Assembly: GCF_036511935.1 (NCBI RefSeq)
Contig: NZ_AP028878.1
Coordinates: forward strand, 1,922,001-1,986,000
Length of the DNA: 64,000 bases
Direction of reading: 5' to 3'
DNA from: Marinobacter nanhaiticus D15-8W
GTDB lineage: Bacteria; Pseudomonadota; Gammaproteobacteria; Pseudomonadales; Oleiphilaceae
In this document: positions 25,070 to 45,153 of the stretch, in pieces
Numbering within the stretch: the stretch's first letter is position 1
Layout: every line of letters begins with the position of its first letter
Notes under the pieces: generated by a model
What the model was told of the DNA's origin: nothing
What the model saw: the letters and a program-made list of their open reading frames with translations, nothing else
Databases searched by the model: none
Translations under genes and position numbers: made by a program

Positions 25070-26785
25070 TTAATCCTTCGTCACGCGGTTCGCTTCTTCG
25101 AGACTGGTCATGCCGTCAATGACTTTCTTCAAGGCTGACTGCCTCAAGTTTGCGAAGCCTTCCGCCTGAGCCTGTTTTGCAATCTGGATGGAGCTAGCCT
25201 CTTCCATGATCATGTTGGCCAGCTCATCCGTAATCTTCACCACTTCGTAAATCCCGACGCGACCTTTATATCCACCATTGCATTTATCACAGCCCTTGGG
25301 TCGGTACAAAGTAAAGCCTGTTTCAATTTGTTGCTCTGTGAAGCCTTCCTTCAAAAGAACGTCCTTGGGGACATCTAGAGGCTCTTTGCAGCTACATAAG
25401 CGTCGGGCAAGTCGCTGGGCAATAATTAAGCTTACGGAAGTTGCAATGTTAAAAGCGGGAACGCCCATGTTCATCATTCGGGTCAGTGTTTCTGGGGCGC
25501 TGTTAGTATGTAGCGTCGAGAGCACCAAGTGGCCTGTTTGGGCAGCCTTGATAGCTATATTGGCGGTTTCCAGATCCCGGATCTCACCGACCATGATGAC
25601 GTCCGGATCCTGACGCAGGAATGCGCGAAGGGCTTCAGCGAAGCCGAGGCCAACCTTGGTGTTGACGTTAACCTGGTTGATGCCTTCGAGATTGATTTCC
25701 GCCGGATCCTCGGCGGTGGAAATATTGCGTTCCTGAGTATTGAGGATATTTAGGCCGGTATAGAGCGAGACTGTCTTACCCGAACCCGTAGGGCCTGTAA
25801 CCAGAATCATGCCCTGAGGCTGTTCCAGCGCCTCCATATACATTTGCTTTTGTTCATCCTCATAGCCCAGAGCATCAATGCCGAGTTTGGCAGAGCTTGG
25901 GTCCAATATTCGCAGTACGATCTTTTCGCCCCAAAGTGTCGGCAGGGTGTTTACCCGGAAGTCGATGGCTTTGGTCTTGGACAGCTTCATCTTGATACGG
26001 CCGTCTTGAGGTACGCGGCGCTCTGAAATATCCAATTGAGCCATGATCTTTACGCGAGCGGAGATCTTCGGTGCCAACTTTATGGAGGGCTTGGACATTT
26101 CCTTAAGAATGCCATCGGTTCGATAGCGAACTCGATAGGTCTTTTCATAAGGTTCAAAATGAATATCCGAAGCTCCGCCACGGATAGCGTCAAGAAGAAC
26201 TTTATTCACGTACTTGACGATAGGTGCATCGTCTATGTCAGCGGCTGTAACGCCGGCGTCTTCACGTTCATCGTCCCCGCCCTCCACATCGATGTCTTCA
26301 AGATCGCTGTCGTCAAGATCTCCCATGGAGGTGTCGCTGGATTCGAGGTAGCGGTCAATGAGTTCTCTGAGTCGAGAGTCATCGACTAGCACGGCGTCGG
26401 TACTCAGGCCGGTATTGAACTTGATCTCATCGAGCGCCTGGATATTTGTCGGATCGGAAACCGCGATAAAGAGGCGCTTACCCCTCTTGTAGAGTGGTAG
26501 AGCGTTATGTTTCCTGACGAGTTTCTCGTCGACGATCTTCTCCGGCAGCATTTCAGGAGCGAAAGAACTTAGATCCAGTACCGAAACACCAAACTCCATT
26601 GCGGCTGAAAACGCCAGCCCACGGCTATCGGCTAGATTGTTTTGCACAAGATAGGTGATGAGCGGGATCTTATTATTGGATGCCTGGATAAAAGCATCGC
26701 GAGCAGCGGCTTCGTCCAGCAGTCCGTCTTCAACGAAGCGGCGTGCAAGCCCGGTAAGAGTAACGTTCTGATTGCTAGGAGGCAT
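25070..26785 (-). CDS. pilB: Type IV pilus assembly ATPase PilB
   Basis: A 571-residue GspE-family hexameric ATPase that powers pilus extension. Domains: N-terminal MshEN-like region (about 10-150), an acidic linker (DLDDSDLEDIDVEGGDDERE, about 156-175), Walker A GPTGSGKT (331-338), Asp box, Walker B (VIMVGEIRD), a His box (TLHTNSAPETLTRM) and a tetracysteine zinc motif near the C-terminus (CSCKEP...CDKCNGG). First gene of pilBCD, divergent from pilA. Confidence 0.96.
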   Translation of the reverse strand: MPPSNQNVTLTGLARRFVEDGLLDEAAARDAFIQASNNKIPLITYLVQNNLADSRGLAFSAAMEFGVSVLDLSSFAPEMLPEKIVDEKLVRKHNALPLYKRGKRLFIAVSDPTNIQALDEIKFNTGLSTDAVLVDDSRLRELIDRYLESSDTSMGDLDDSDLEDIDVEGGDDEREDAGVTAADIDDAPIVKYVNKVLLDAIRGGASDIHFEPYEKTYRVRYRTDGILKEMSKPSIKLAPKISARVKIMAQLDISERRVPQDGRIKMKLSKTKAIDFRVNTLPTLWGEKIVLRILDPSSAKLGIDALGYEDEQKQMYMEALEQPQGMILVTGPTGSGKTVSLYTGLNILNTQERNISTAEDPAEINLEGINQVNVNTKVGLGFAEALRAFLRQDPDVIMVGEIRDLETANIAIKAAQTGHLVLSTLHTNSAPETLTRMMNMGVPAFNIATSVSLIIAQRLARRLCSCKEPLDVPKDVLLKEGFTEQQIETGFTLYRPKGCDKCNGGYKGRVGIYEVVKITDELANMIMEEASSIQIAKQAQAEGFANLRQSALKKVIDGMTSLEEANRVTKD

Positions 26786-27093: not shown

Positions 27094-27576
27094 TTGGAGA
27101 AGTATATGAAACGTGTGCAGCAGGGTTTTACCTTGATCGAATTGATGATCGTGGTTGCAATTATCGGTATTTTGGCAGCTGTTGCCATTCCTGCTTACCA
27201 AGACTATACAACTCGCGCCCGTATGGCCGAGCCTGTATCCCTGATGTCTGCAGCAAAGCTGGATATCTATGAGCGTATGGTATCTGAGGGCGCATGGCCT
27301 GACGATAGTGACGGTGAAGAGATTGTCGATCGTATTGCGTCGCAATCTGATCTCGTAAGTGCGGCTGATTATACCGCTGGCGCCACGACTGCCGATGCAA
27401 CTCTAGTCGAGCTTACACTTGCCAATACCGGTGATGCTACGAATCTGGACAGCAAGAAGCTGAACTTCACGCTAACTCCGTCGGCGAACGGGCTGGCTGT
27501 GACATGCTGGACTGATATTGATTCAGACTACTACAATCGTATTCCGAACGAATGCCGTAACGACAGCGCATCCTAA
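27094..27576 (+). CDS. pilA: Type IV major pilin PilA
   Basis: A 160-residue type IVa prepilin. The leader MKRVQQG is followed by the mature start [20 protein letters not shown], with Gly at -1 and Glu at +5. A C-terminal disulfide loop is bounded by Cys at about 138 and 154. The protein ends NDSAS, so its last residue is serine, as in pilins that are O-glycosylated at the C-terminus by TfpO/PilO. Start fixed by the leader and a GGAGAA ribosome site. A strong hairpin follows, then the TfpO-like gene. Confidence 0.95.
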
Positions 27577-27600
27577 AACGCTGCTGAAGTTGGTATAAAC

Positions 27601-27634
27601 CCCAGCCCGGTGACCAGCACATCACCGGGCTGGG
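27601..27634 (+). terminator. Strong hairpin between pilA and the tfpO-like gene
   Basis: A 13-bp perfect stem (CCCAGCCCGGTGA / TCACCGGGCTGGG) with an 8-base loop, 25 bases after the pilA stop. The downstream tract is only GGTTATTT, so termination may be partial. That would give much pilA mRNA and little of the next gene. Confidence 0.7.
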
Positions 27635-27654
27635 GGTTATTTGAGGGTCTTCCT

Positions 27655-29151
27655 TTGACATTCGTCCGGAGTGTTTGGTGGTATTTTTCTGTTTTCCTCA
27701 TTTTCGTCCTATTTTTCTTCGCGTTTTTTGGTGGGATAGTGCGAGTACTTGGGGTTGGAGGGTTTGATCAGGTCAGAGTTGCTCTTGTTTCCTATCTGGC
27801 TGTTTCTGTAGTTCTTTCTGTCCTTTTTTTTAACTGGCGTTCTTCTAGAAGTCCTAGTGCTATATTGTTTCTGCTCGGTACTCTGCTTTTCGTATTATCT
27901 AGTCTGATCTCAGATCATCTGTATGCAGTGTCGAAGTTTTGGCTGGCAAACCTTTCCTATTTTTTGTTCGCCCTGTTGTTTGTCTTCGTGTTTTTCTCTT
28001 CGCAATCTCCTCAGTTTCGTATCACTCTGGCTCAAGTCGTAATATGCGCAGTATTCGTCTTTTCATTAGTTTACCTTTCATTATATGTTGCTTTATTGGT
28101 GGCTGGAGGTATGCAAAGTTTCAGAGGTGCGATAATTGGCTCGGGTTTTGCAAATATCAACTTTTTAGGCCAAGTGGCTACATGGTGCATACCCTTGTTG
28201 TCCGCTGCGGCTTCATATGAATATAGGTATCGTCGCCAACTAATTAGAATACTATCATTTTCTCTTATGTCTGGATTGTGGTTCATCGTATTGAGCGTCT
28301 CAATCCGGGGGACGATTCTTAGTATAGCCTTATCTAGTGTTTTTCTATTTCTTGTATTTGGAGGTAGAAGTAGGAATCATGTATATCCGGCTTTACTCTC
28401 CTTTGTTCTTGCCTTTTTGTTATGGGTGGCAGTCACTCAATTTGTTATAGATTCCAAAGATCTTATTTCCAATGAGTTTGTTGTAGACCCAACGGGGCGC
28501 GTAATGTTATGGAGAGAGGCTTGGGGCATGAGCTTCGTAAATTTCCCTTGGGGTATGGGAGGTGAATCATGGATATTGCACGCACCGGTAGACGGTAATT
28601 TTATTTCTAACTTGTCCCACGGTCATCCCCATAACACATATTTTTTGTTTGCTGCGGAGTATGGGTGGGTTTCGCTTCTTGGATTGGCGTTAGTTTTTCT
28701 TGCTTTTGCATTAAGGATTAGATATTTCAAAATGACCGTTAAGCTGTCCAGTAAGGCCGATTCGGCAAAAGTTATGCTGACTCTTGGTTTTATTTATTCG
28801 TGCGTCTCTGGTCTACTTCATGCCGGTGTTTCTGGCAATCTGCTGATGCCAAGTTCGGCGATAGTTGGTGTTACTTGTTTGTCTTCTTTGTGGGCATTGC
28901 TGGAGGCTGAATCTTCCGGCTTTATTGTCTCGAACAACCAAGTGCGCGGCTCGAATGTTCTTGTGCCTATTTGTATGGTGCTAATGCTTTCTACATGGGC
29001 GATTTTGTGGTCTAGGGGTGTTTATGACTATTGGGAATCAATGAAACTCGATGGCGGGCGTTATTCAGAGGGAGGAGTAACGTACTACCCTAGATTTTGG
29101 CTGCATGGATATGCTGCAGATTTGCCCGCTTCTTATCAATCCGTGCATTGA
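27655..29151 (+). CDS. O-antigen ligase-family membrane protein; likely pilin O-oligosaccharyltransferase (TfpO/PilO type)
   Basis: About 498 residues with 10-12 hydrophobic helices and a Wzy_C-type periplasmic loop ending in GHPHNTYFLFAAEYGW (catalytic His region). The frame is open to a GTG at 27610, but that codon lies inside the pilA terminator stem. The TTG at 27655 with GAGGG 7 bases upstream is the better start. It sits directly after pilA, the hallmark position of tfpO in Pseudomonas and Acinetobacter, where the enzyme moves an O-antigen unit onto the pilin's terminal Ser. Alternative: the WaaL O-antigen ligase, since no other WaaL is seen. It is visibly AT-richer than pilBCD, suggesting transfer. 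Confidence 0.7.
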   Translation: MTFVRSVWWYFSVFLIFVLFFFAFFGGIVRVLGVGGFDQVRVALVSYLAVSVVLSVLFFNWRSSRSPSAILFLLGTLLFVLSSLISDHLYAVSKFWLANLSYFLFALLFVFVFFSSQSPQFRITLAQVVICAVFVFSLVYLSLYVALLVAGGMQSFRGAIIGSGFANINFLGQVATWCIPLLSAAASYEYRYRRQLIRILSFSLMSGLWFIVLSVSIRGTILSIALSSVFLFLVFGGRSRNHVYPALLSFVLAFLLWVAVTQFVIDSKDLISNEFVVDPTGRVMLWREAWGMSFVNFPWGMGGESWILHAPVDGNFISNLSHGHPHNTYFLFAAEYGWVSLLGLALVFLAFALRIRYFKMTVKLSSKADSAKVMLTLGFIYSCVSGLLHAGVSGNLLMPSSAIVGVTCLSSLWALLEAESSGFIVSNNQVRGSNVLVPICMVLMLSTWAILWSRGVYDYWESMKLDGGRYSEGGVTYYPRFWLHGYAADLPASYQSVH

Positions 29152-29251: not shown

Positions 29252-29925
29252 TCAAAAGGGTGTCATGTAATCCAATAAACTTTGTCGAGCCTGCTGGTGT
29301 GTCCGGTATCGATGGTGCCGTACATGCTCGGTCTTCAACGTATGGAAGAGGCTCACCATTGCCGCATTATCGAGGCAGTTGCCTTTACGACTCATGCTGG
29401 GCTCGATGCCATTAAGGGTTAGCAGTGCCTGGTACTGAGCGGTGCGGTACTGAACGCCCTGGTCGGTATGAAGCATGAGCTTGTCCGGTTTGCCGCGTCG
29501 CCCTAAAGCCATCTCCAGTGCCTCTGTAGCCAGGTTTCGACTAGGGCCGCCATTTTCGACCAGCCTACAATCATGCGTGAGAACAGGTCCATGAAGGCGG
29601 AGAGGTACAGCCAGCCTTCTGCGGTGGAGATGAAGGTAATATCGCCCACCCAGCGCTGATTCGGTGCCTCAGCCGAGAAGCACCTGAGCAGCCGACGCTC
29701 AACGATGTGTTCGAAGGTTTGGCCACGACAGGAACGTTGCCAGACCTTGGCTAGAGCGGTCACCAGACCCGCCTGGCGCTTGAGCTTCGCAATGCGGTTC
29801 ACACCGCCCAGAACCCCTTGGCTGAGCAACTCCTTCCTGATCCTAAGCGGACAGTAGGCGTGCCGATTCTGATGGTGAACCTGCTCGATCTGCTGCAGCA
29901 GTGCCCTGTTGGCTCGGACCCGACC
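29252..29925 (-). pseudogene. IS3-family transposase (OrfB) remnant, frameshifted and 5'-truncated
   Basis: The minus strand carries an IS3-type OrfB integrase core in two frames. The upstream frame reads from QQIEQVHHQNRHAYCPLRI through PNQRWVGDITFI and YLSAFMDLFSRMIVGW. A frameshift near 29530 moves the rest to another frame (MALGRRGKPDKLMLHTDQGVQ, then KGNCLDNAAM and a C-terminal end). The first Asp of the DDE triad (GDITF), the second (HTDQGV) and the Glu region (LFHTLKTE) are still recognisable. The N-terminus of OrfB and all of OrfA are missing. It is not expected to make an active transposase. Confidence 0.88.
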
Positions 29926-30338: not shown

Positions 30339-30818
30339 ATGACTTGGTACGTTCTACGGCACAAACCAAATCAGGGCGATCGCGCGGTAGAGCACCTACA
30401 AAGTCAGGAAGTTGCTTGCTTCTATCCCAAGATCGAAGTCGAGAAGGTCAAAGCTGGTCGGCGTTTTAAAAGGCTTGAAGCGCTTTTCCCCGGTTACATC
30501 TTTTTCAGAATGGAACCCGACGACCCTCAATGGGCAAAGCTTCGCTCAACTCGAGGTGTACTACGCGTAGTCAGTTTTGCCGGGAATCCTGCACCGGTTG
30601 GTGACGATGTCATCGCTCAGATTAAAGAAGGCATGCAAGCCATCGCGGAGCGGGGTGGTATGAAGCCTGGCCAGCCCATTGAGATTCAGGAAGGTCCCTT
30701 TAAAGGCTTTAGCGCGATTTTTCAAACCTACGACGGTGACACCCGAGCCATTGTTCTGCTTGAGTTTTTGCAGAAGCAACAGCGGGTGCGCATGCCGGTA
30801 TCTTCCATAAAACGCTAA
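30339..30818 (+). CDS. rfaH: Transcription antitermination factor RfaH
   Basis: A 159-residue NusG paralogue that binds RNA polymerase at ops sites and suppresses termination in long polysaccharide operons. The NGN domain starts at MTWYVLRHKPNQGDRAVEHL, and the family's RFKRLEALFPGYIFF and ARG-type loop RSTRGVLRVVSF are present. The C-terminal part contains the KOW-like FKGFSAIFQTYDG. It lies 200 bp upstream of a perfect ops element and the O-antigen operon. Inference: a local RfaH serving its neighbouring operon. Confidence 0.92.
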   Translation: MTWYVLRHKPNQGDRAVEHLQSQEVACFYPKIEVEKVKAGRRFKRLEALFPGYIFFRMEPDDPQWAKLRSTRGVLRVVSFAGNPAPVGDDVIAQIKEGMQAIAERGGMKPGQPIEIQEGPFKGFSAIFQTYDGDTRAIVLLEFLQKQQRVRMPVSSIKR

Positions 30819-31018: not shown

Positions 31019-31030
31019 GGCGGTAGCGTG
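31019..31030 (+). promoter_or_regulatory. ops element (RfaH recruitment site)
   Basis: GGCGGTAGCGTG matches the enterobacterial ops core exactly, in the context GGGGCGGTAGCGTGCC, which is the 3' end of the JUMPstart sequence. It lies 36 bases before the wzz ATG and after rfaH, on the transcribed strand of the polysaccharide operon. RfaH loads onto paused polymerase at this signal and prevents premature termination. Confidence 0.92.
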
Positions 31031-31065
31031 CCGGCTTGGCCAATAAGATGTAGCAGGTATTGCAG

Positions 31066-31827
31066 ATGAATAGTGCTTACGAGCAGCAACAAAAGCTGGA
31101 CGATGACATAAGTTTGGTAGATCTCGCCGCGGTATTCGTTCGGCGGCGGTTTGTATTTTATATCGTATTCATCATCGTGACGTTAGCCGGCCTAGCATAC
31201 GCTCTGCTTGCATCGGACAAGTATGAGTATGTGAGCCTCTTGGAAGTGGCCAAACTGGGAGACGGTAAATCGGTTGAGCAACCCCATACAGTTATTGCGA
31301 CTATAGAGAATCGCTGGTTGCCGGAGGTCGGCGTACGTTTCCGAGCGGAAATGGATATGAAGCTTCCTTTCGAAGTAAAGGCTAGCAATCCAGAGCAGAC
31401 CAGTCTGGTCCGTCTGGTGTCGGAGGCAGAACAAGAAAGCGCTGATTTGGTAGAAAAAATTCATACAACGTTAATTGAAAAAGTAAAAGAACATCAGAAT
31501 GGCTCGCTCAAAATTGAGGAGAAAAGTCTCCAGCGTCAGGTCAAATCTTTGGACGACGTGATTCAAGCGCTTGAAGGACAACAGAATGCGGGCGAAGCTT
31601 TAGCGAGCGCAATCGAGAAGCGAGTGAACCTGGAGAGTGAGCTGGAACAGCTCAAGCCGGTGGATGAGCTTGTCGTGAGTCGCCAGAGTGCCGACAAAAC
31701 TGAGCCGCGGCGAGTGCTAATTGTGGTGGTAGCCGGCATTTTGGCTGGCGCTGGTGGTATTTTTGCCGTGTTCCTCGCTGAATTTTGCGTTTTGGTGAGG
31801 GCCAAATTGAGAGTAGACATAAAGTAG
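31066..31827 (+). CDS. wzz: Wzz-family polysaccharide chain-length regulator
   Basis: A 253-residue protein with two membrane helices (about residues 30-50 and 220-242) flanking a periplasmic, largely coiled-coil domain. This is the PCP-1 architecture of Wzz, which sets O-antigen chain length with Wzy. The N-terminal DDDISLVDLAAVFVRRR segment is typical. The ATG at 31066 is preferred to a TTG two codons earlier. It is shorter than many Wzz proteins (about 325-350). First gene after the ops site. Confidence 0.85.
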   Translation: MNSAYEQQQKLDDDISLVDLAAVFVRRRFVFYIVFIIVTLAGLAYALLASDKYEYVSLLEVAKLGDGKSVEQPHTVIATIENRWLPEVGVRFRAEMDMKLPFEVKASNPEQTSLVRLVSEAEQESADLVEKIHTTLIEKVKEHQNGSLKIEEKSLQRQVKSLDDVIQALEGQQNAGEALASAIEKRVNLESELEQLKPVDELVVSRQSADKTEPRRVLIVVVAGILAGAGGIFAVFLAEFCVLVRAKLRVDIK

Positions 31828-31895: not shown

Positions 31896-32948
31896 ATGAA
31901 GCTACTAGTTACAGGTGGGGCGGGCTTCATTGGCTCTGCCGTTATTCGCCATATTATCCACGATACGACGGATCAAGTGGTCAATCTAGATAAGCTGACT
32001 TATGCCGGCAACTTGGAGAGTTTGGCAGAAGTAAGCGATAGTGAGCGATATGTCTTTGAGAAAGCGGATATCTGTGATCGAGCGGAAATGGACCGTATTT
32101 TTGACGAGCATCGTCCTGATGCGGTCATGCATCTCGCCGCAGAAAGCCACGTCGATCGCTCTATCGATGGTCCCGCAGCCTTCATCGAGACCAATATAGT
32201 TGGTACTTACACGTTACTGGAAGCGGCCCGTCAATACTGGAATGCCTTGGATTTGAGACGGAGGTCGAGCTTCCGCTTCCATCACATAAGCACTGACGAA
32301 GTATATGGTGACCTGGAAGGGTCGGATGACCTGTTCACCGAAACAACCTCCTATGCGCCAAGCTCGCCTTATTCGGCAAGTAAAGCCGGTTCTGACCACC
32401 TAGTGCGCGCGTGGCACCGGACTTATGGTTTGCCTGTTTTGGTAACTAATTGTTCTAACAATTACGGACCTTATCACTTTCCTGAGAAACTCATACCTCT
32501 GATGATACTCAACGCTCTGGAAGGTAAGCCGCTACCCGTCTACGGTCAAGGCGAGCAGATCCGGGACTGGCTATATGTGGAAGACCACGCCCGAGCGTTA
32601 TATAAGGTAGTGACAAAAGGTAAGGTGGGTGAAACTTACAATGTTGGTGGTCACAACGAGAAACAAAATATTGAGGTGGTACATGCCCTCTGTGAGCTCC
32701 TACAGGAGTTCCGTCCTCGAAAGGGCCATTACAGGGAGCTAATTACTTATGTAAAAGACCGCCCGGGCCACGACATGCGCTACGCGATTGATGCAACGAA
32801 GATTCAGAATGAACTCGGTTGGACGCCAAAAGAAACCTTCCAAACTGGCATTCGAAAGACCGTACTTTGGTATCTGACGAACATCGACTGGTGCAAGCGT
32901 ATTCAAGATAGCAGCTACCAACGAGAGCGCTTGGGCGTATCGGGATGA
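31896..32948 (+). CDS. rfbB: dTDP-glucose 4,6-dehydratase
   Basis: A 350-residue SDR enzyme making dTDP-4-keto-6-deoxyglucose. NAD motif [12 protein letters not shown] near residue 8, catalytic region STDEVYGDL, and the Tyr-x3-Lys pair in [10 protein letters not shown]. The first step of dTDP-sugar synthesis; rfbA follows. No rmlC or rmlD is present in the window, so the keto sugar is likely aminated by the DegT enzyme at 33896 rather than converted to rhamnose. Confidence 0.95.
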
Positions 32949-33026
32949 GACAGCGAAATGGAATTTCTGAGTGGTCAAGCACCGCGTTAGTAGTTTTCAA
33001 ATCACCAAACTAAAGGGCGATTGAAC

Positions 33027-33899
33027 GTGAAAGGAATCATCCTTGCAGGCGGCTCCGGCACGCGCCTATATCCCATAACGCTAGGCACTTCCAAACAGCT
33101 TCTGCCGGTGTACGACAAACCGATGATTTACTACCCTCTTTCCGTACTCATGCTCGCAGGTATTCGGGATATCCTCATCATAACGACGCCTGAAGACCAG
33201 GCTGGTTTTAAACGAGCATTGGGTATGGGCGATAAGTTCGGGATAAATCTGAGCTACGAAGTACAACCACGTCCGGAGGGACTCGCCCAAGCTTTCATTA
33301 TTGGGGAAGAATTCATAGGTAGCGACAGCGTATGCTTAGTGCTGGGTGACAACATTTTCTATGGCCAAGGGTTCACTCCCAAATTGCAACAATCGGCCCG
33401 GCGTATTGATGGGGCCACCGTCTTTGGTTATCAGGTAAAAGATCCCGAGCGCTTTGGTGTAGTAGAATTTGACGAAAGCAAACGCGCAATTTCCCTCGAA
33501 GAAAAGCCTGAACATCCGAGATCCCATTACGCAGTTACCGGTCTTTATTTCTACGATAACAGCGTCGTAGAAATTGCCAAAAAGGTAAAGCCCAGCAACC
33601 GAGGCGAACTGGAAATTACCTGCATAAATCAGGTCTATATGGAGCAAGGTAAGCTAAATGTTGAGCTGTTGGGTCGGGGGTTCGCATGGCTGGACACTGG
33701 AACACACGAAAGCCTATTGGAGGCCGCTCAGTTTGTGGAAACTGTTGAAAAGCGTCAAGGGTACAAAATCGCTTGTCTTGAAGAAATTGGCCTTAATCAA
33801 GGCTGGCTTACCAAAGAACAGTTTCTGCAGCAAGCCAGCCGGCTTCAGAAAAACGGTTACGGCCAATACTTACTAGATATACTGGAAGGCACAAAATGA
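33027..33899 (+). CDS. rfbA: Glucose-1-phosphate thymidylyltransferase
   Basis: A 290-residue nucleotidyltransferase making dTDP-glucose. The signature [20 protein letters not shown] and the family motifs [23 protein letters not shown] and LEEKPEHP are present. The GTG at 33027 gives the canonical MKGIILAGG start with AAGGG 9 bases upstream; a TTG two codons earlier is less likely. Its stop overlaps the next start by 4 bp. Confidence 0.95.
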
Positions 33900-34981
33900 T
33901 CCCTGTCACTAAGCCGTACCTACCAAGCCGGGAAAAGCTGAACCGGTACCTTGATGATATATATGACAGCAATGTGTTAACCAACAACGGCCCGCTGGTA
34001 CAGACACTTACTAGTAGACTTGAAGATTTTCTCGAAGTTGAAAATCTACTCCTGGTTTCAAATGGTACTCTTGCGCTACAAATTGCTTATCGCGCGCTCG
34101 GTATTAACAAGTTGGTCGATCGTAAACCTGCTGAAGCGATTACAACACCTTTTACGTTCATCGCTACGGCAAGCTCATTGAAGTGGGATGGTATTCAGCC
34201 ATCGTTTTCAGATATCGACCCGGAAAGCTGGTGTATAGCGCCAGAGAGCATCGAAGCGCAGATTACACTACAAACCCGCGCTATCATTCCTGTGCATGTA
34301 TTCGGCAACGCTTGCGATGTAGAAGCTATCGGACGAATTGCTCACAAGTACAACTTAAAAGTCATTTACGATGCTTCCCACGCTTTTGGCGTAAAATATA
34401 AAGGCGAGAGCCTACTAAAGCAGGGAGATGCTGCCACGCTTAGTTTTCACGCTACGAAACTATTCCATACCGGTGAGGGGGGCGCAATTGTCTTCAAGCG
34501 CCAAGAGGATTTGGAGCGAGCCAGGAAAATGATTAATTTCGGAATAACCGCGCCTGAAAGCATGGAGGAGATCGGCATCAACGCGAAGATGAGTGAGCTC
34601 CAGGCAGCGATGGGTTTGTCTGTTTTGGATGAAATGCAAGATAACCTTAGAGCGAGGAAGAAAGCGTGGGAGGGCTACTATCAAAAGGTCCCATCGCACT
34701 TTACCAAACAAAAAATAAATAAAAATATCACATATAATTACGCATACTTTCCGGTAATGCTGAAAAATCAAGACGAAGTTAAAAAGTTGTTGTTATTCTT
34801 AGCTGAAAAAAATATCTTTCCGAGGCGCTATTTTTATCCATCACTTGAGAGTGTTAAGTTTCTGGAGAATGAAAAGCCGATGCCAGTTTCTGCCTCCGTC
34901 TCCTCAAGAATTCTATGCCTTCCACTCTATTTCGGTTGCGACTTTGAAAGAGTTGTTGATTCAATTTGGAGATTGTACTAA
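33896..34981 (+). CDS. DegT/DnrJ/EryC1 sugar aminotransferase (VioA-like)
   Basis: A 361-residue PLP enzyme. The PLP Lys is K188 in [13 protein letters not shown], with D159 in [10 protein letters not shown]. The N-terminus [19 protein letters not shown] and [11 protein letters not shown] resemble VioA-type enzymes that aminate dTDP-4-keto-6-deoxyglucose at C4. Overlaps (4 bp upstream, 1 bp downstream) tie it to rfbA and the acetyltransferase. Product could be dTDP-Qui4N (VioA) or dTDP-Fuc4N (WecE); sequence alone does not settle the stereochemistry. Confidence 0.85.
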
Positions 34982-35544
34982 TGGCGTTTCTAGCTTGTGA
35001 TCAGCTTAAGTCTATAGGGTTCTCTGAGTTAGGTAATAACGTATTAATATCTGACAAAGCCTCCATTTATAATCCCGAAAATATCAAAATTGGAAGCAAT
35101 GTCAGGATAGATGATTATTGTGTGCTCTCCGCCGGTGACGGTGGGATTTTTATTGGAAACTATGTTCATATTGCTGTTTTCTCGTTATTAATCGGCGCAG
35201 GCTCAATACATCTAGATGATTTTAGCGGTTTGTCATCTAGAGTCGCCGTCTATAGCAGTAACGATGATTATTCAGGGGGTTCCCTTACCAATCCTACAGT
35301 TCCCGACCAGTTTAAACGTGTGAAAGTATCTAATGTTTACATTGGAAAACATGTAATTATTGGCTCTGGCGCAGTCGTTCTTCCTGGGGTGACTATTAAC
35401 AAAGGTGCAGCGGTGGGTTCACTTAGTCTAGTTGTTAAAGATTGCCAGGAATTTAAAATATATTCTGGAGTGCCGGCTAAGCCAATAAAAAATAGAAGTA
35501 GGAATATCGAGAATCTGGAAAAAGAACTGCTTAGTTTGTCATGA
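34981..35544 (+). CDS. Hexapeptide-repeat sugar N-acetyltransferase (VioB/WecD-role)
   Basis: About 187 residues of left-handed beta-helix repeats (for example INPGV-like turns: VYIGKHVIIGSGAVVLPGVT, given in part) ending with YSGVPAKPIKNR, typical of acetyltransferases. By position between the aminotransferase and the WecF-like gene it probably N-acetylates the dTDP-4-amino sugar. The ATG at 34981 overlaps the previous stop (TAATG). A frame extension of five codons is not used. Markedly AT-rich. Confidence 0.8.
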   Translation: MAFLACDQLKSIGFSELGNNVLISDKASIYNPENIKIGSNVRIDDYCVLSAGDGGIFIGNYVHIAVFSLLIGAGSIHLDDFSGLSSRVAVYSSNDDYSGGSLTNPTVPDQFKRVKVSNVYIGKHVIIGSGAVVLPGVTINKGAAVGSLSLVVKDCQEFKIYSGVPAKPIKNRSRNIENLEKELLSLS

Positions 35545-36698
35545 GGATACTTCACGTCGCAACAGACGATAAATTCATAGATCACGCGTTTGATCTATTC
35601 GAAGCTGCGTTTCCAAAGCAAAATGACGTACTTATAATTTCGAAGTCTTTCAATTTAAAGTACGTTAAACTGGTTCCTAAAAAACTTTCTTTGGTCCGAT
35701 TTTCAATCAAAAGGCGGCCAAAGGTACGAAGATCGTTTTATGAAAACTACGACGCGGTTTTTTTTCATTCGCTTGACGATTTAATTTACCCAGAAGTTTA
35801 CAATATCCCCGAGCATCTACCAAAGATTTGGCTAGGATGGGGGTATGACTACTACGAATTGATTGGTACCTCAAGCGAATTGCTTCTTCCAAAAACACGG
35901 CTATTAATTGACGAATTAAGAAAAAATAATACTTTAAGAATTGTCGGTGCTAGTTTTGGTCGCGCCTTGCTGGCACTAGGTTTTTCTAAATCGCGAGAAA
36001 AGGCGATAGAAAAGATATCGCTGTTTTCGCCGGTGCTACCTAATGAATACGAGCTGGTTCGAAAAGCCAGAAAGTGGCAAGACTTCCCTCGAAGCGCAAG
36101 TTGGAATTATGGCACCATCGAAGACAACTTAATTAGAGGATTTGAAAGACACCAAGTAAGTGGCGATGCGATCTTGGTTGGCAATAGCGCTTCGCCGAAC
36201 TGTAATCATGCAGAAGCTTTTGATTTTCTCCTGGCACAAAATCTAAAAAATAGAAAATTTATTGTTCCTCTTAGTTATGGAAATAAGCTATACGCTAGGA
36301 AAGTTATAGAGTCAGGGGAATGTTATTTCGGTGTGGACTTTGTTCCGCTACAAGAATTTTTACCTATAAAAGATTACGTGGCTATGATAAAAAAATGCGG
36401 CTACGTAATAATGAATCATAGACGGCAACAGGCAGTCGGCAACATCGTAATCATGCTGTACTTGGGGGCCAGAGTATTCGTTCGAGAAGAAAATTTGGTT
36501 TATACCTTTTTTAAAAAATTGGGTGTGTCACTCTCAACTGTTCAGGAACTTGAAGTGAATCCGGGTCTACTTAATCTACCGCTTTCTGACGAGGAGCGTG
36601 AAACGAACAGGAAGGCAGTAAGTGTTTACTGGTCACGTGAGCGGGGTATTGAGAGAACTAATATTCTGGTTGAGCAAGCTGTTGGTAATATAAGTTGA
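35541..36698 (+). CDS. WecF-like glycosyltransferase (GT56, 4-acetamido-sugar transferase)
   Basis: A 385-residue protein with features of the TDP-Fuc4NAc:lipid II transferase family: an N-terminal ILHVATDDKFIDHAFDLF, a central WNYGTIEDNLIRGF-like region, ILVGNSASPNCNHAEAFDFL, and NHRRQQAVGNI. WecF transfers Fuc4NAc in enterobacterial common antigen. Here it probably transfers the dTDP-4-acetamido sugar made by the preceding genes. Overlaps the acetyltransferase by 4 bp. AT-rich, consistent with horizontal transfer. Confidence 0.82.
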   Translation: MRILHVATDDKFIDHAFDLFEAAFPKQNDVLIISKSFNLKYVKLVPKKLSLVRFSIKRRPKVRRSFYENYDAVFFHSLDDLIYPEVYNIPEHLPKIWLGWGYDYYELIGTSSELLLPKTRLLIDELRKNNTLRIVGASFGRALLALGFSKSREKAIEKISLFSPVLPNEYELVRKARKWQDFPRSASWNYGTIEDNLIRGFERHQVSGDAILVGNSASPNCNHAEAFDFLLAQNLKNRKFIVPLSYGNKLYARKVIESGECYFGVDFVPLQEFLPIKDYVAMIKKCGYVIMNHRRQQAVGNIVIMLYLGARVFVREENLVYTFFKKLGVSLSTVQELEVNPGLLNLPLSDEERETNRKAVSVYWSRERGIERTNILVEQAVGNIS

Positions 36699-36729: not shown

Positions 36730-38166
36730 ATGGCGTGCATGACTCCCAAGCAGATTGCGCTGTTCGCCATTGGCCCTTTAGGCGGCTCCTGTCTGGGCCT
36801 CGTTACGTTGCCCCTAGTTACTTGGTATTTTTCACAGGAAGACGTTGGCCGTATGGCTATGCTTCAGGTTACTCTCAGCTTTAGCACCTTGCTGTTCAGC
36901 TTGGGCTTAGATCAGGCATATGTGAGGGAATTCCACCAAAGCCATAATCAACCGGCGTTATTAAAAAGTGTTATCCTGCCTGGTCTCGTTTTTTTGCTTT
37001 CCACGCTTGCTGTGCTTTTAACAATGGGAGGGGCTGTATCAAAATGGTTGTTTGATGTTTCCTCGTTGCAATTGAGCGTTTTAGTAGCTATAGCACTTTT
37101 GGCCTCCTTTATTTCTCGGTTTTTGTCGCTTGTCCTCAGAATGAATGAGCGAGGTCTAGCTTTTTCAATGAGTCAAGTGGTGCCGAAGCTTTTACTACTT
37201 GTAATTATAATTGGTTATGTACTTTTGGACGGCGCAAAAAATTTGACTAATCTGGTCGCTGCTAATACAGCAGCAATCGCGCTGGTAAGTGTGGTGTTAG
37301 TCTGGAATACGCGAAATGAATGGATCGAAGGGCTTAGACATCAGCTGGACCTCGCCGCGCTAAGAGAATTGTTATGTTTTGGCCTGCCTCTGATTCTAGG
37401 TGGAATAGCATTTTGGGGGCTCACGGCTACCGATAAAGTATTCCTTCGTATGTTTTCGAGCTACGAACAGCTTGCCATTTATTCTGTCGCAGTGAGCTTT
37501 GCAGCTGCCGCTACGATTTTGCAAAGCGTTTTCTCCACGGTATGGGCTCCTACTGTGTATAAGTGGGTTAGCAAGGGGGGCGGGATTGAAAACATTCATC
37601 GAGCTAGCCGGTATATTCTTCTCTGTGTAGTGGTGTTGTTCTCCCTAGCTGGATTATTTTCTTGGGTAATTACGATCTTTTTGCCAAGTGAGTACGCGAG
37701 TGTGCAGTGGCTGTTAATTTCATGCCTTGGGTACCCATTGCTATACACGTTGTCAGAGACTACAGTCGTTGGGATTGGCATCTCTAAGCGAAGTGTTTTC
37801 GCGATGGCTGCAGCCTTCCTAGCGTTCGCCGTAAATCTATTTGGCAATTGGCTATTGATCCCTAAGTTCGGTGCCGCTGGTGCAGCGATAAGTACATGCG
37901 GTTCATTTCTTCTATTTCTCGTAGCAAGAACCGAATTCTCTTGCTATCTCTGGAAGTCATTCCCGAGAAAGCTCATCTATTGCTACAGTATATTGGTTGT
38001 ATCTGGCGCCATATTGAGCACATTGGCGGCGGGACGAGCAGGATGGCTGGCACATGCATTTTGGGCTCTCGTGTTGTTAAGCACTATTTTCACCTTTCGG
38101 GCTGAGATCGTTGAAGTCTGGCGCTTCATCAGAGCGCACGTTACCGGGAGAGTTAGAGTTGTTTAG
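36730..38166 (+). CDS. Wzx-type lipid-linked oligosaccharide flippase
   Basis: A 478-residue polytopic protein with about 12 membrane helices of the polysaccharide-transport (MATE/MurJ-like) superfamily. The N-terminus reads PKQIALFAIGPLGGSCLGLVT, followed by typical helix pairs and FGAAGAAISTCGSF near residue 385. It moves undecaprenyl-diphosphate-linked repeat units to the periplasm. M1 or M4 may be the start. Confidence 0.82.
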   Translation: MACMTPKQIALFAIGPLGGSCLGLVTLPLVTWYFSQEDVGRMAMLQVTLSFSTLLFSLGLDQAYVREFHQSHNQPALLKSVILPGLVFLLSTLAVLLTMGGAVSKWLFDVSSLQLSVLVAIALLASFISRFLSLVLRMNERGLAFSMSQVVPKLLLLVIIIGYVLLDGAKNLTNLVAANTAAIALVSVVLVWNTRNEWIEGLRHQLDLAALRELLCFGLPLILGGIAFWGLTATDKVFLRMFSSYEQLAIYSVAVSFAAAATILQSVFSTVWAPTVYKWVSKGGGIENIHRASRYILLCVVVLFSLAGLFSWVITIFLPSEYASVQWLLISCLGYPLLYTLSETTVVGIGISKRSVFAMAAAFLAFAVNLFGNWLLIPKFGAAGAAISTCGSFLLFLVARTEFSCYLWKSFPRKLIYCYSILVVSGAILSTLAAGRAGWLAHAFWALVLLSTIFTFRAEIVEVWRFIRAHVTGRVRVV

Positions 38167-38246
38167 GACCTCTTCGGGCTTTTATTGTATGAGCCTAGGA
38201 AGCCGCTTATAACGCATATAATCATTTTTTTAGTTGGATAATTTTT

Positions 38247-39305
38247 TTGTTACCTTATATTTTTCTATACGTCTTGGTTTCTTTCTTTGCCTTAATGTCC
38301 GACTTCGCTAATAGGCGTGGGTATTTTTATGCGTTGTTGATGGCTGCCCTATTTATCGTGTTAGCTATCTTTTCGGGGATAAGGGCAGAGAGCGTAGGTA
38401 CAGACACGTCCGCTTATTATATTATATTCAACTATCTAACGAGCTCCGCGGTTAATCCTTTTCTTACGCGCTATGAGCCGGGCTTTGTAATGATGAACCT
38501 TGTTTCAAATTGGTTTGGTTGGGGACCCTCAGGGGTTATTTTTCTATCGTCGAGCTTGTTTTCTCTCTTGATAGTACTCGCGGCGCATCGATTTTCTACT
38601 AACCACTTAGTTTTTTTTAGTGTTTTTTTAGGATTGTCGTTTTATATCTTCTCCTTTAATGGTGTGCGTCAGGCTTTAGCGATGGCTTTTGTTTTGAATG
38701 GACTGAACCTTTACTCTGGGAAGGATAAGAAAGGTATAGTTTGGTGTTTAACAGCTATCCTATTCCACCTAAGTGCAATATTTTTCTTAGTATCCTTTGT
38801 TTTCCTAAGACTGCGCTTAAAAGCTATAGCTTGGCTTTTAGTGTGGTCATTATCTATATTTATAATGATTGATCCTGATCCACTAAAATACGTTATAGAT
38901 CAAACTTCTTACATGTTTCCTTCCAGTTACCAAGTCTATTTTGGTGATTATTTGTGGGGTAGCTACGGCAGCTTAGAGGTAAGAGATCTATTTTATCAAT
39001 TTCTTTTTTTTGTTGCTTTGTATTCCCTTTACGTTTTTCGAAATAACTCGATGTGTTCCATGGTGTCAATATTGGTGATGTCCGCCGTAATATTTAAAAA
39101 TATATTTTTACACTTCGGGTTTATTGAAAGGCTGAGTTTGTACTTTGAGATATTTATTCCTTTATATCTTGGGTACGTTACGCTTGTTTTTCGGCATCAG
39201 GTAGAGATTGCCTTGATTTCCTTTGGCTTTTCGGCGCTAATGTTTATTCTATATATAAGGGCGATATCAGGTAATTCAAATGGTGTTTTGCCATACAGCT
39301 TTTAA
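38247..39305 (+). CDS. EpsG/Wzy-like polysaccharide polymerase
   Basis: A 352-residue protein of about ten hydrophobic helices with the EpsG-type signatures GTDTSAYYIIF and FNGVRQALAMAF. In a Wzx/Wzy locus it is the best candidate polymerase. The start is a TTG with a weak GGATAA site; an internal ATG at 38295 is the alternative. Very AT-rich. Confidence 0.75.
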   Translation: MLPYIFLYVLVSFFALMSDFANRRGYFYALLMAALFIVLAIFSGIRAESVGTDTSAYYIIFNYLTSSAVNPFLTRYEPGFVMMNLVSNWFGWGPSGVIFLSSSLFSLLIVLAAHRFSTNHLVFFSVFLGLSFYIFSFNGVRQALAMAFVLNGLNLYSGKDKKGIVWCLTAILFHLSAIFFLVSFVFLRLRLKAIAWLLVWSLSIFIMIDPDPLKYVIDQTSYMFPSSYQVYFGDYLWGSYGSLEVRDLFYQFLFFVALYSLYVFRNNSMCSMVSILVMSAVIFKNIFLHFGFIERLSLYFEIFIPLYLGYVTLVFRHQVEIALISFGFSALMFILYIRAISGNSNGVLPYSF

Positions 39306-39364: not shown

Positions 39365-40498
39365 ATGAAAGTGGCATATATTTCAGCATATGCAGCGGAT
39401 TTTCCGTCTCGTACAGCTAATAGCATTCATGTGATCAGAATGTGTGAGGCTTTATCAAAAGTTGGCTCTGATGTGGTTTTGTTTCTGAGAGACCAAGGCT
39501 ATACTAATGAGCAAATATTAGAAAGTTATGGTGTCGCTAAAAGTTTTGAAGTTATTAAAACTAAGTCGAAAATACCAAAAATTAATCGGATACTTTATGC
39601 CAAGAAATCGGTGCATGAGGCTCGGCGACGCGGTGTTGATTTAGTAATATCGCGCTCAGCTATACCGTGTTGGTTTTCGGCCAAGAATAATATCGATTTC
39701 GTGTTTGATGCTCACGGACCAATCTCTGAAAAGAATTTTATCGAGAGGTGGTGTTTTAAAAATATATTATCGTCGTCAAACTTTAAACGAATGACCTTTA
39801 ACTCCAAAGCTATGAGACGTTGGTATGAGTATCAAAATTTACTACCAGAGCGGGCATCTTTATACGTTGCTATGAACGGCGCATCCGATGATATTGCTGG
39901 TTGTGAGACGTTAAATAGCGGTTGGCCGGGCAGATCAGGAGTTCTCCAGGTTGGCTATACAGGCCATTTATATCCAGGTAGAGGTGTTGACCTGATTCTG
40001 CGATGCGCGGAGTGCCTACCTGATCTGGATTTTCATTTTATAGGCGGTAATGAAGAAGATATTGTTTATTGGAAGTCCCGAAGTTCCGCTGGAAATGTAT
40101 ATTTCCACGGTTTTGTCAAACCGAACCTTGTATCCGCATATCGTGATCGTTGCGATGTATTGGTAGCGCCATACCAGTCATCCGGTGTAGCGGTGGCGGG
40201 GGGGAAAGGTGATACCAGTAGTTTTATGAATCCCATTAAAGTTATCGAGTATATGGCAAGCGGAAAAGCGATTGTCGCCTCTGATCTCCCCGCTATTCGG
40301 GACTGTATTTCCGATAAAACAGCAGTTCTAGTAGATCCCGACGATTTGCGCGGCTGGTGTAATGCTTTAATACAGCTTTCTAATGACGAAAAATTTTGCG
40401 AAGAAATGTCCCGTCAAGCAAGGCAGGCGTTTGGTGCAGGTTTTACATGGGAAGCACGAGCAGAAAAGTTGCTCGGCATTTTTAAAGAGGGAGCATAG
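39365..40498 (+). CDS. GT4-type glycosyltransferase
   Basis: A 377-residue GT-B enzyme. The N-terminus MKVAYISAYAADFPSRTANS is an acceptor-side Rossmann start. The donor-side motifs VGYTGHLYPGRGVDLI and NPIKVIEYMASGKAIVASDL (the E-x7-E region, given in part) place it in the GT4 family. Substrate unknown. One of four sugar transferases in the cluster. Confidence 0.82.
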   Translation: MKVAYISAYAADFPSRTANSIHVIRMCEALSKVGSDVVLFLRDQGYTNEQILESYGVAKSFEVIKTKSKIPKINRILYAKKSVHEARRRGVDLVISRSAIPCWFSAKNNIDFVFDAHGPISEKNFIERWCFKNILSSSNFKRMTFNSKAMRRWYEYQNLLPERASLYVAMNGASDDIAGCETLNSGWPGRSGVLQVGYTGHLYPGRGVDLILRCAECLPDLDFHFIGGNEEDIVYWKSRSSAGNVYFHGFVKPNLVSAYRDRCDVLVAPYQSSGVAVAGGKGDTSSFMNPIKVIEYMASGKAIVASDLPAIRDCISDKTAVLVDPDDLRGWCNALIQLSNDEKFCEEMSRQARQAFGAGFTWEARAEKLLGIFKEGA

Positions 40499-40651
40499 AT
40501 TGGTTATTTCATGAAAAATAAATGGCAAGCCATTCAAGCTTTCTTGTAAATTGAAATTCTAGTTGCTTGGTCCCGAATTTGGTGCGGCGGTTCTCGTATG
40601 TGTCCGCGGTTGGCGTGTATACACTATCCGAGGTTTCAGAGGCTTCTACTG

Positions 40652-41788
40652 GTGAGTAGTTCTAATACAGTTTTACATATCATTACGGGCTTGCAAGATG
40701 GTGGTGCGGAGGGTGTCATGTATCGTCTTTGTAAACACAGCGCCTCCACGAAACATGTCGTTATTTCCTTAATGGACGAAGGAAAATATGGTTCGCTTTT
40801 GCGCGAAGCGGGAATCGAAGTTTTTTGCTTAGGTATGAATCCCGGAAAACCTAGTCTGTTTAAGTTTTTTAGGTTGGTAAGCCTTGTCAGGAGCGTTTGC
40901 CCTGGTGTAGTTCAAACTTGGATGTATCATGCCGATTTAATAGGTGGCCTAGCGGCGAGGATAGCTGGTAACAAAAATGTCTATTGGGGCATCCGGCATT
41001 CTACTTTGGAGAGGGGCAAAACAAAGCTCTCGACTATCTTGGTTGCTCGGCTTTGTGCGTCGCTTTCTTTTTGGCTACCTAAAAAGATTATCTGTTGTGC
41101 TAATAAAGCATCCAGAGTTCACGAAGAATTGGGTTATACCAAAGATAAGCTCTGTGTTATTCATAACGGGTGCGATTTGACCCGTTTTTCGCCTAATGAG
41201 AACAGTCGGCAACGTGTTCGCGAGGAATTTGGAGTCTCCGAGTCTGAATTTTTAATTGGGTGTGTGGGGCGATACCACCCCTGCAAAGATCACGAGAACC
41301 TATTTAAAGCTCTTGCTTTGGTGAAGGATGCGGGGGTGAATTTTCGATGCTTGCTGGTTGGAAAAAATGTGAACAAAGCTAATGGCGCTCTAGTTAATGC
41401 AATTGCCAATTTGGGGCTGGACGAGAGCGTTCTATTGGCTGGCTCGCGTGAGGATGTTCCCGATGTTATGAATGCAATTGACATTCACGTGCTAGCTAGC
41501 TCTTCGGAGGGCTTTCCTAACGTATTGGCGGAGGCAATGGCCTGTGGTACACCTTGTGTTACGACCGAGGTGGGCGATGCTTTGGATATCGTTGGGGACG
41601 TCGAACTAACCTGTTTGCCTAGTGATCCCGATGCTCTTGCTTCGTTGGTTCAGCGAATGTTTTTGAAGTGGTTCGAGGGGCCAGAAATATGGGAGCGAAC
41701 GAAAATACATTGTGTTCAGAAGATTCAGCGTTTTTCAGTTCAAAGTATGGTAGATGCATACGAAGCTTGCTGGTATGGGCGTAAATAG
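40652..41788 (+). CDS. GT4-type glycosyltransferase
   Basis: About 378 residues, GT-B fold. The motif HIITGLQDGGAEGVMYRL at the N-terminus, CVGRYHPCKDHENLFKAL in the middle, and SSEGFPNVLAEAMACGTPCV (E-x7-E) are GT4 hallmarks. The frame is open to an ATG at 40598, but GTG at 40652 with AGAGG 9 bases upstream gives the canonical start. Substrate unknown. 153 bp without a gene separate it from the previous one. Confidence 0.82.
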   Translation: MSSSNTVLHIITGLQDGGAEGVMYRLCKHSASTKHVVISLMDEGKYGSLLREAGIEVFCLGMNPGKPSLFKFFRLVSLVRSVCPGVVQTWMYHADLIGGLAARIAGNKNVYWGIRHSTLERGKTKLSTILVARLCASLSFWLPKKIICCANKASRVHEELGYTKDKLCVIHNGCDLTRFSPNENSRQRVREEFGVSESEFLIGCVGRYHPCKDHENLFKALALVKDAGVNFRCLLVGKNVNKANGALVNAIANLGLDESVLLAGSREDVPDVMNAIDIHVLASSSEGFPNVLAEAMACGTPCVTTEVGDALDIVGDVELTCLPSDPDALASLVQRMFLKWFEGPEIWERTKIHCVQKIQRFSVQSMVDAYEACWYGRK

Positions 41789-41949
41789 TTCTTTAGAGAA
41801 TTTATTTAAGTTATTTAAAAAGCTTAAGATATATTCCTCGGTTTGAGATTTATGGATTTTAATCGTCGGTTAAGTTGAATTTAAACATTAAAAAAGAGCT
41901 TTGACTGAGCGCATTTTGCGCTTAAACTGAGATTAGGCTGGTCAGCAGG

Positions 41950-43086
41950 ATGAAACGTATACTTTTTGTAGTGAATACTCCAGAGTTCTTTGTTTCTCAT
42001 CGTTTGCCGGTGGCTTTAGCTACAAAAAATGCTGGGTATGAAGTACACGTTGCCTCCTCTCCCGGTCCGGCGGTCACAGAAATCCAGGCTCAGGGCTTTC
42101 GACATTACACTGTTACTTTTGCGAGAAGCGGTCAAAATCCGTTGGTGGAACTCTGCACTTTTATCGAGCTGTATAAGCTGCTTCGCCGTCTTAGGCCAAC
42201 GTTGGTTCATCTCGTTACTATTAAGCCGGTGTTATACGGCGGATTGGCAGCTCGAGTCGCTGGGATAAAAGGCGTGGTTTTTGCTGTCTCCGGTCTTGGT
42301 ACGGTGTTCGTAGCTGGGTCGATGGTGTCTAAGCTTCGTCGATGGGTAGTTACACGGCTTTATGCGTCCGCTTTCCGGCAAAAGCAGCTAACGGTTATAT
42401 TCCAGAATCCAGATGATCGTGACACTTTGCTGTCGACCGGTGCTTTGAACCCGAAACAAACACGAATGGTCCGCGGATCTGGGGTCGCGTTATCCGATTA
42501 TCCTTGTCTACCGGAGCCAGACGGCAAGCCTGTCGTAGTTATGGCTGCGCGTCTGTTGAGAGACAAGGGTGTGTTTGAATTTGTGCGTTCGGCTCATATT
42601 TTGCGAGCGAGAGGTATTGATGTTGATATGCGTCTACTGGGCTCGCGAGATCCCGGAAACCCGACCACAGTGACGACAGCTGAGCTTGAGCAGTGGGAAA
42701 AAGAGGGAGTAGTAGAAATTCTGGGCTTTCGTACGGACATAGCTCGTCAATATGCGTTAGCTAATATTGTGTGTCTGCCGTCATATTACGGGGAGGGCTT
42801 GCCAAAATGCCTGATTGAAGCGGCAGCGTGTGGGCGGGCGGTTGTAACTACGGATCACCCGGGGTGTCGGGATGCAATTACGCCTGATGTAACGGGACTG
42901 TTAGTGCCGGTTAAGCATGAAATAGCTTTGGCGGATGCCATTCAAAAGTTAATTGAAAATCCTGAAATGAGAAGAGCGATGGGTGAACGTGGTCGGGAGT
43001 TGGCTGAGGGGGCTTTTTCGATCGAAACAGTCGTTAATCAACATTTACAGATTTATGACGCAGTGGTGAGCCACGGGGAAAAATAG
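41950..43086 (+). CDS. GT4 glycosyltransferase of the WbpH/PglA type
   Basis: A 378-residue GT-B enzyme. It begins MKRILFVVNTPEFFVSHRLP and has VHLVTIKPVLYGGLAARVAG, AARLLRDKGVFEFVRSA and YYGEGLPKCLIEAAACGRAV, the set found in PglA- and WbpH-like transferases that add the second sugar onto a lipid-linked HexNAc-type primer. Good candidate for acting right after the PglC-like initiator at 44601. Substrate is inferred only. Confidence 0.83.
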   Translation: MKRILFVVNTPEFFVSHRLPVALATKNAGYEVHVASSPGPAVTEIQAQGFRHYTVTFARSGQNPLVELCTFIELYKLLRRLRPTLVHLVTIKPVLYGGLAARVAGIKGVVFAVSGLGTVFVAGSMVSKLRRWVVTRLYASAFRQKQLTVIFQNPDDRDTLLSTGALNPKQTRMVRGSGVALSDYPCLPEPDGKPVVVMAARLLRDKGVFEFVRSAHILRARGIDVDMRLLGSRDPGNPTTVTTAELEQWEKEGVVEILGFRTDIARQYALANIVCLPSYYGEGLPKCLIEAAACGRAVVTTDHPGCRDAITPDVTGLLVPVKHEIALADAIQKLIENPEMRRAMGERGRELAEGAFSIETVVNQHLQIYDAVVSHGEK

Positions 43087-45152: not shown

Positions 45153-45153
45153 C

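Follow-up and report, generated by a model that had tools for sequence, protein, structure and literature searches.

The gene that directly follows pilA (27655–29151) very probably codes for an O-oligosaccharyltransferase of the TfpO/TfpM type that is dedicated to the pilin and would act on the terminal Ser of PilA. It lies in a window of 64,000 nucleotides from Marinobacter nanhaiticus D15-8W, this being the whole stretch of DNA that was analyzed. In the proposed mechanism the putative ligase would take a lipid-linked glycan in the periplasm, most likely a unit supplied by the downstream O-antigen pathway, and join it to the hydroxyl of the PilA C-terminal Ser. The gene order, the domain make-up, the conserved residues and the co-variation with a terminal Ser/Thr hydroxyl are observed directly; the catalysis, the acceptor site and the use of O-units are what we infer. 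A terminal Ser by itself would be weak evidence for pilin glycosylation. The co-occurrence of a terminal Ser or Thr with the ligase gene in the relatives far exceeds what chance would give. The features concerned are collected in Table 1.

Table 1. Features of the pilA–ligase–O-antigen region of the window, with the sulfatase-fold genes found behind pilA in related regions
Feature	Position	Strand	Basis
pilB, divergent from pilA	25070..26785	-	T2SSE 512 bits, MshEN
pilA, major type IV pilin, 156 aa	27106..27576	+	Pfam N_methyl and Pilin; ends ...CRNDSAS
Codon of C-terminal Ser, proposed acceptor	27571..27573	+	Sequence; co-variation with ligase
GC-rich hairpin, 14 bp stem, weak T tract	27600..27635	+	Probable leaky pilA terminator
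Proposed pilin oligosaccharyltransferase, 498 aa from TTG	27655..29151	+	Wzy_C; start as in P0001; family near pilA in relatives
IS3-family transposase remnant between ligase and O-antigen locus	29503..29829	-	NF033516 77.6 bits, below cut-off 160; rve
rfaH	30339..30818	+	TIGR01955 over cut-off
ops-like 8-mer between rfaH and wzz	31019..31026	+	Exact match
wzz, chain length determinant	31060..31827	+	PF02706
rfbB, rfbA, DegT-type aminotransferase, hexapeptide transferase, GT56-like transferase	31896..36698	+	Probably dTDP-amino-sugar genes
Wzx-like flippase and EpsG-family protein (candidate Wzy)	36730..39305	+	PF01943, PF14897
Three group-1 glycosyltransferases	39365..43086	+	
Epimerase, bacterial sugar transferase, WbpM-like dehydratase	43642..47088	+	PF01370, PF02397, PF02719
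Sulfatase-fold genes behind pilA in relatives	L143:1266-2657; L154:1264-2658; L166:1310-2740; L161 (9334-10758, -)		

The pilin is recognized by its N-methylation motif (39.5 bits) and by the Pilin family PF00114 (38.5 bits), of which pilA is the only match in the genome at E 0.01. In the list of open reading frames pilA begins at TTG 27094, and the ATG at 27106 is the better start because GGAG lies upstream of it. The ligase gene is the next gene 3' of pilA on the same strand; its listed start, GTG 27610, falls inside the hairpin and was rejected in favor of the likelier TTG 27655, which is preceded by GAGGG at 27643–27647 and is also the start of database protein P0001. The protein scores 37.1 bits for Wzy_C (PF04932), whose cut-off is 31.7; neither a second Pfam family nor any NCBIfam family was matched at E 0.001. 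Its gene has a G+C content of 0.428, compared with 0.503 for pilA and 0.535 for the window. The initial annotation of a PilA ending in NDSAS with an AT-rich Wzy_C-type gene adjoining it is thus confirmed on both counts. A PDB sequence search with the ligase, as single sequence and as profile, gave no match; a contig scan with the single ligase protein returned 14 stretches, none of them a relative; and protein database searches with the ligase gave 2 and 3 hits, each among 8000 scored candidates.

A ligase match at E <= 1e-5 was found in 38 of 196 genomes (the window's own genome counted), and the gene mostly, though not invariably, adjoins a pilin gene. The family is very divergent: the nearest ligase, that of genome G090, is 39% identical to the window's, the window's ligase is 22–37% identical to the other 22 rows of the alignment, and the ligases of the window and G090 form a separate deep branch on the ligase tree, which was built without G050. 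Conserved nonetheless are an HPHN...AAEYGW stretch and a C-terminal PRFWxHG; in the 498-aa numbering Arg218 is present in at least 90% of the ligases, while Arg282 and His326 are invariant. By their order and rough spacing these three probably correspond to the three residues of WaaL/PglL named in an excerpt of PMC3643930, the equation being our own. Wzy_C was matched in all 23 aligned ligase rows, most of which are matched stretches and not whole proteins; in the same rows neither PglL_A nor Wzy_C_2 was found (0/23), and both are absent from the window protein as well.

Co-variation of the ligase with the last residue of the pilin was evaluated in a sample of 120 relatives of the Marinobacter family, of which 100 were fetched first and ten more on rechecking, using for each genome a region of about 12 kb from pilB (one of 18 kb; some end at contig ends). 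Genomes G011, G077, G088 and G113 were left out because pilB lies near the contig start, as were G018, G019, G027, G032, G037 and G040, whose main pilB row was not listed; G002 and G094 were dropped because the first pilin was not found. Four classes were distinguished: genomes with the ligase family (class A), with another Wzy_C protein of 400–500 aa (class B), with only a PglL-like protein of about 600 aa (class C), and with no Wzy_C within 5 kb (class D). Classes B and C were defined by a purpose-built profile and a 560 aa length cut chosen after the data had been seen, and a Wzy_C frame of at least 560 aa also occurs in five class A genomes (in G014 it is the ligase itself) and in three of class B. 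Ser and Thr were pooled as S/T after the first loci had been looked at. A Pfam check of ten neighboring proteins showed three with a sulfatase fold and one below the Wzy_C cut-off, and G045 was scored as having no family ligase though its ligase lies near the start of another contig.

In the initial set the first pilin after pilB ends in S/T in 33/35 genomes of class A (26 Ser and 7 Thr), 5/6 of class B, 1/12 of class C and 4/46 of class D; S/T ends thus amount to 33/35 with the ligase family versus 10/64 in the others (Fisher p 4e-15). Among the ten genomes added later, G008, which has a ligase nearby that matches the family weakly, has a pilin ending in CPQS, and in the nine without ligase one pilin (G023) ends in ...CS and eight end in K, R or P. 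For all 109 genomes the counts are 33/35, 6/7, 1/12 and 5/55 for classes A to D, or 33/35 versus 12/74 (Fisher p 1e-15). Within the family, then, the fitting terminal residue is mostly found where such a ligase gene is found.

This association is not merely shared ancestry, as tree-aware pairs agree with it. On a tree built on 300 bp of pilB, which also underlies the tree with the ten added genomes, the ligase and the terminal residue each require 27 changes in the initial set, and 16 independent pairs on well supported branches give a mean of 12 for the association, 0 against and 4 undecided (median sign-test p 0.0005). With the ten added genomes, 18 pairs give means of 13.4 for, 0.1 against and 4.6 undecided (median p 0.0002), a few of the pairings including 1 against. 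The S/T frequency in class A pilins falls from 0.94 at the last position to 0.20 at the penultimate one. Where a second pilin lies nearby (21 genomes), the first ends in S/T in 21/21 and the second in 4/21 (p 5e-8), the second pilin of G063 being doubtful. The number of residues after the last pilin Cys is 3 in 23/35 genomes with the ligase and 1 in 25/46 without. Pilin and ligase distances are also correlated (partial on pilB distance 0.32; 33 genomes, without G050 and G013), the value of the plain Mantel test being reached by 1 of 2000 permutations.

As to the choice between the two hydroxyl residues, the best ligase tree has 6 exchanges between Ser and Thr (5 of them forced by starred branches), and the Ser and Thr labels are no more clustered on that tree than when shuffled, as would be expected if either hydroxyl serves. 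In 42 named related loci, 33 of them called Marinobacter by our count and mostly of the same species as the relatives, an upstream pilin is present in 38 and the first ends in S/T in 36, again by our count; loci with two upstream pilins have CRL at the end of the nearer one. The order pilin, ligase, second pilin recurs in many relatives (e.g., L013, L014 and L023), and 17 of the 21 second pilins in ligase genomes have no terminal Ser/Thr, their ends often being CVI or CRL.

Exceptions occur in both directions. Two class A genomes (2/35) depart from the rule: in G013 the pilin ends in V and the ligase looks intact, and in G050 (region L134) the pilin ends in Q and pilA has two ligase copies in its vicinity, one of them shortened and the other spread over several frames. 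The broken appearance of the G050 copies agrees with the rule without proving it. In G055 the ligase is far from pilA, which ends in CK, and no pilin was found within 5 kb of the ligase; conversely, 5/55 genomes without a nearby Wzy_C still end in S/T. Outside the family, 12 distant ligase loci (L192–L203) include 8 with an upstream pilin on the same strand, and the adjacent pilin ends in S/T in only 3 of these 8 (L194, L195 and L203), the others ending in A, A, L, L and F; at L199 a pilin ending in S lies farther upstream. The rule is thus strong inside the Marinobacter family and weak beyond it.

Two other functions for the gene product have to be weighed against these data. PilA has many internal Ser/Thr residues, and pilin-adjacent Wzy_C enzymes are able to use such sites, as PglS does on ComP (PMC6385209, in excerpt), so that the acceptor might be internal, as for PglL and PglS, and the terminal Ser no acceptor at all. 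This is very unlikely, because the strongest S/T difference is that at the last position (0.94 versus 0.09 in genomes without any nearby Wzy_C), because pilins of genomes whose only such protein is PglL-like end in S/T so rarely, and because the PglL_A and Wzy_C_2 domains were not found in the 23 aligned ligase rows; on the same domain evidence, membership of the window protein in the PglL group was rejected. Genome-wide, no clear PglL-type protein was detected by Wzy_C_2, the matches being weak and a 904 aa frame passing only together with neighboring pieces.

Alternatively the gene could encode WaaL, which joins polymerized O-chains to lipid A-core. Wzy_C is common to both types of enzyme (PMC12645811, in excerpt), and wzx, a candidate wzy and wzz all lie downstream. 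The 5.4 Mb genome, however, has three further Wzy_C proteins over the cut-off, and two of these match more strongly (86 and 72 bits) and lie at about 1.0 Mb in an LPS-core cluster with heptosyltransferase, Kdo/WaaP kinase and lipid A acyltransferase genes (eight proteins scanned); the ligase next to pilA need not, therefore, be WaaL. Since in addition the gene goes along with pilA and with the terminal residue of the pilin across the family, WaaL was rejected as the main function, and we regard it as highly improbable. The earlier proposal of a TfpO-like enzyme acting on the last Ser is accordingly well supported, by the co-variation in relatives, by the make-up with Wzy_C only and by the location of other Wzy_C proteins in the LPS-core cluster; that it would transfer a single O-antigen unit is drawn by analogy. 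At locus L182:13849-15912, a 687 aa protein encoded in an LPS-core cluster fuses Wzy_C to a family 2 glycosyltransferase.

If the gene product is indeed a C-terminal pilin oligosaccharyltransferase, the source of its glycan is a separate matter. The O-antigen-type genes begin with wzz (31060), about 1.9 kb past the ligase, and extend to 47088; they include what are probably dTDP-amino-sugar genes (31896..36698) and, at the distal end, what is probably the initiating sugar transferase. The placement of O-unit genes just downstream in the initial annotation is therefore borne out as to nearness, whereas the IS3 remnant and rfaH intervene. The ops-like 8-mer has 1 exact match in the window against 1.9 expected by chance; if the site is real, RfaH would act only downstream, as it lies 3' of the ligase gene, and its position together with the IS3 remnant makes a shared transcript of ligase and O-antigen locus seem unlikely. 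Within 12 kb of pilB, a homologue of RfaH is encoded in 23/32 genomes of class A, 2/6 of class B, 9/11 of class C and 12/41 of class D, counts that exclude regions shorter than 12 kb (3/35 of A, 1/12 of C and 5/46 of D), with a Fisher p of 4e-4 for class A versus class D; none was near pilB in the ten genomes added later. When genomes with an oligosaccharyltransferase of either kind are compared with those with none, the tree-aware test leans the same way and is not significant (median p 0.06). Irrespective of this comparison, rfaH, often with wzz, is found near pilB–pilA in many family genomes, some of them without the ligase.

A glycan from elsewhere than the neighboring O-antigen locus would be a variant of the best explanation, with which its odds overlap. 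It would fit the separation of ligase and locus by the IS3 remnant and rfaH, the presence of the third further Wzy_C gene at 3.0 Mb among glycosyltransferase genes, and the failure of the link between oligosaccharyltransferase and RfaH nearness to reach significance on the tree. Against it stand the greater frequency of nearby RfaH homologues where the ligase is present and the sugar transferase and WbpM-like dehydratase genes that close the locus, a pair that would suit a first sugar of C2-acetamido type, as required by TfpO (PMC12645811, in excerpt). On balance an outside source is rather unlikely, though with a real chance of being correct, and the downstream pathway is preferred.

The hairpin after pilA had been suggested to keep the ligase level low relative to pilin. 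A strong hairpin is indeed present: the 101 nt around its 14 bp stem fold with a z of -3.5, a stability that none of 200 shuffles equals. It is not special, however, because terminator-like hairpins follow pilA in 26/35, 4/6, 12/12 and 34/46 genomes of classes A to D (mean of 0.1 or less in shuffles), hence as commonly without the ligase as with it, and the role of a special attenuator was rejected. The window's own hairpin, strong in its stem, fails the T-tract criterion of that survey. It is probably an ordinary pilA terminator that may allow some read-through to the ligase, and a lowering of ligase level by it is possible in a generic sense.

Another kind of gene also occupies the position behind pilA. 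Four relatives have there, directly after pilA, a protein of about 470 aa with a sulfatase fold (PF00884), and in each of them the pilin has a C-terminal Ser; a profile built from these proteins revealed no fifth in the other regions. In G020 and G115, two of the five S/T-ending genomes without Wzy_C, a sulfatase-fold membrane gene follows pilA. The Neisseria pilin phospho-form transferase PptA has a sulfatase fold, which makes pilin phospho-modification possible in those relatives. We offer tentatively, as a reading with less than even odds, that the Ser/Thr-directed oligosaccharyltransferases may form a family separate from TfpO/TfpM and that the position after pilA may be a slot for exchangeable pilin-modifying enzymes, with whose occupant the last residue of the pilin would co-evolve; the occupant would be a Ser/Thr-directed oligosaccharyltransferase, a PglL-like one, or a sulfatase-fold membrane protein that maybe adds a phospho-group.

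In the Marinobacter family the presence or absence of the enzyme goes with the presence or absence of a fitting acceptor residue, and this pairing provides many natural controls for the role of the sugar in phage reception, adhesion or motility. The same controls are suited to asking what sequence context of the last residue is required by the enzyme, and the divergent set of proposed C-terminus-directed oligosaccharyltransferases, with both Ser and Thr acceptors, is offered for glycoengineering.

Comparison with known systems, made from excerpts of the papers cited, places the window ligase as follows. Glycosylation at the pilin terminus is on record from Pseudomonas, Acinetobacter and Moraxella (PMC12645811). 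TfpO acts on a C-terminal Ser, and TfpM, described for Acinetobacter and Moraxella, on a C-terminal Ser or Thr; known members of both have neither PglL_A nor Wzy_C_2 (PMC12645811). Group I pilins go with TfpO and a C-terminal serine (PMC11626772), and TfpO orthologues in Acinetobacter transfer one repeat unit (PMC6385209). Within a limited set of PMC papers, the only one found on Marinobacter and pilin glycosylation or an oligosaccharyltransferase was PMC3643930, in an excerpt of which a PglL homologue adjoins the pilin of Marinobacter sp. ELB17 and close PilO homologues are reported as not found outside P. aeruginosa at that time.

PglL, including the ELB17 homologue, resembles the window ligase in having Wzy_C and lying beside a pilin gene and differs from it in having PglL_A/Wzy_C_2; PglL-like proteins of about 600 aa do occur near pilA in other genomes of the Marinobacter family, and of the genomes that have only these, just 1/12 has a first pilin ending in S/T. 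WaaL shares Wzy_C and the Arg/Arg/His residues, but the window ligase lies beside pilA instead of in an LPS-core cluster. In P. aeruginosa a tRNA-Thr gene bounds the pilA locus (PMC11626772), and no tRNA was found in the window. TfpO/PilO of P. aeruginosa group I and Acinetobacter is like the window ligase in lying directly 3' of pilA on the same strand, in having Wzy_C without PglL_A or Wzy_C_2, and in its pilin ending in Ser; it differs in that the ligase family here pairs with Ser or Thr, 7 of the 35 partners ending in Thr. The end of the window's own pilin is unlike the TfpO tag, and a search of 390 genomes with the tag pattern gave 5 matches, none in an ORF recognized as a pilin; seven of the 35 partner pilins nevertheless end in WKDSYAPAGCPxS, a sequence similar to the TfpO tag as given in PMC12645811. 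TfpM of the Moraxellaceae shares with the ligases here the C-terminal Ser or Thr, the pilin-linked gene and the domain make-up. The likeness to TfpO/TfpM is one of gene order, domains and pilin end. That the window ligase works like TfpO or TfpM is the best explanation of these features, and the evidence added here is a comparison across a marine family in which a ligase of TfpO/TfpM type appears to be paired with a terminal Ser/Thr of the pilin.
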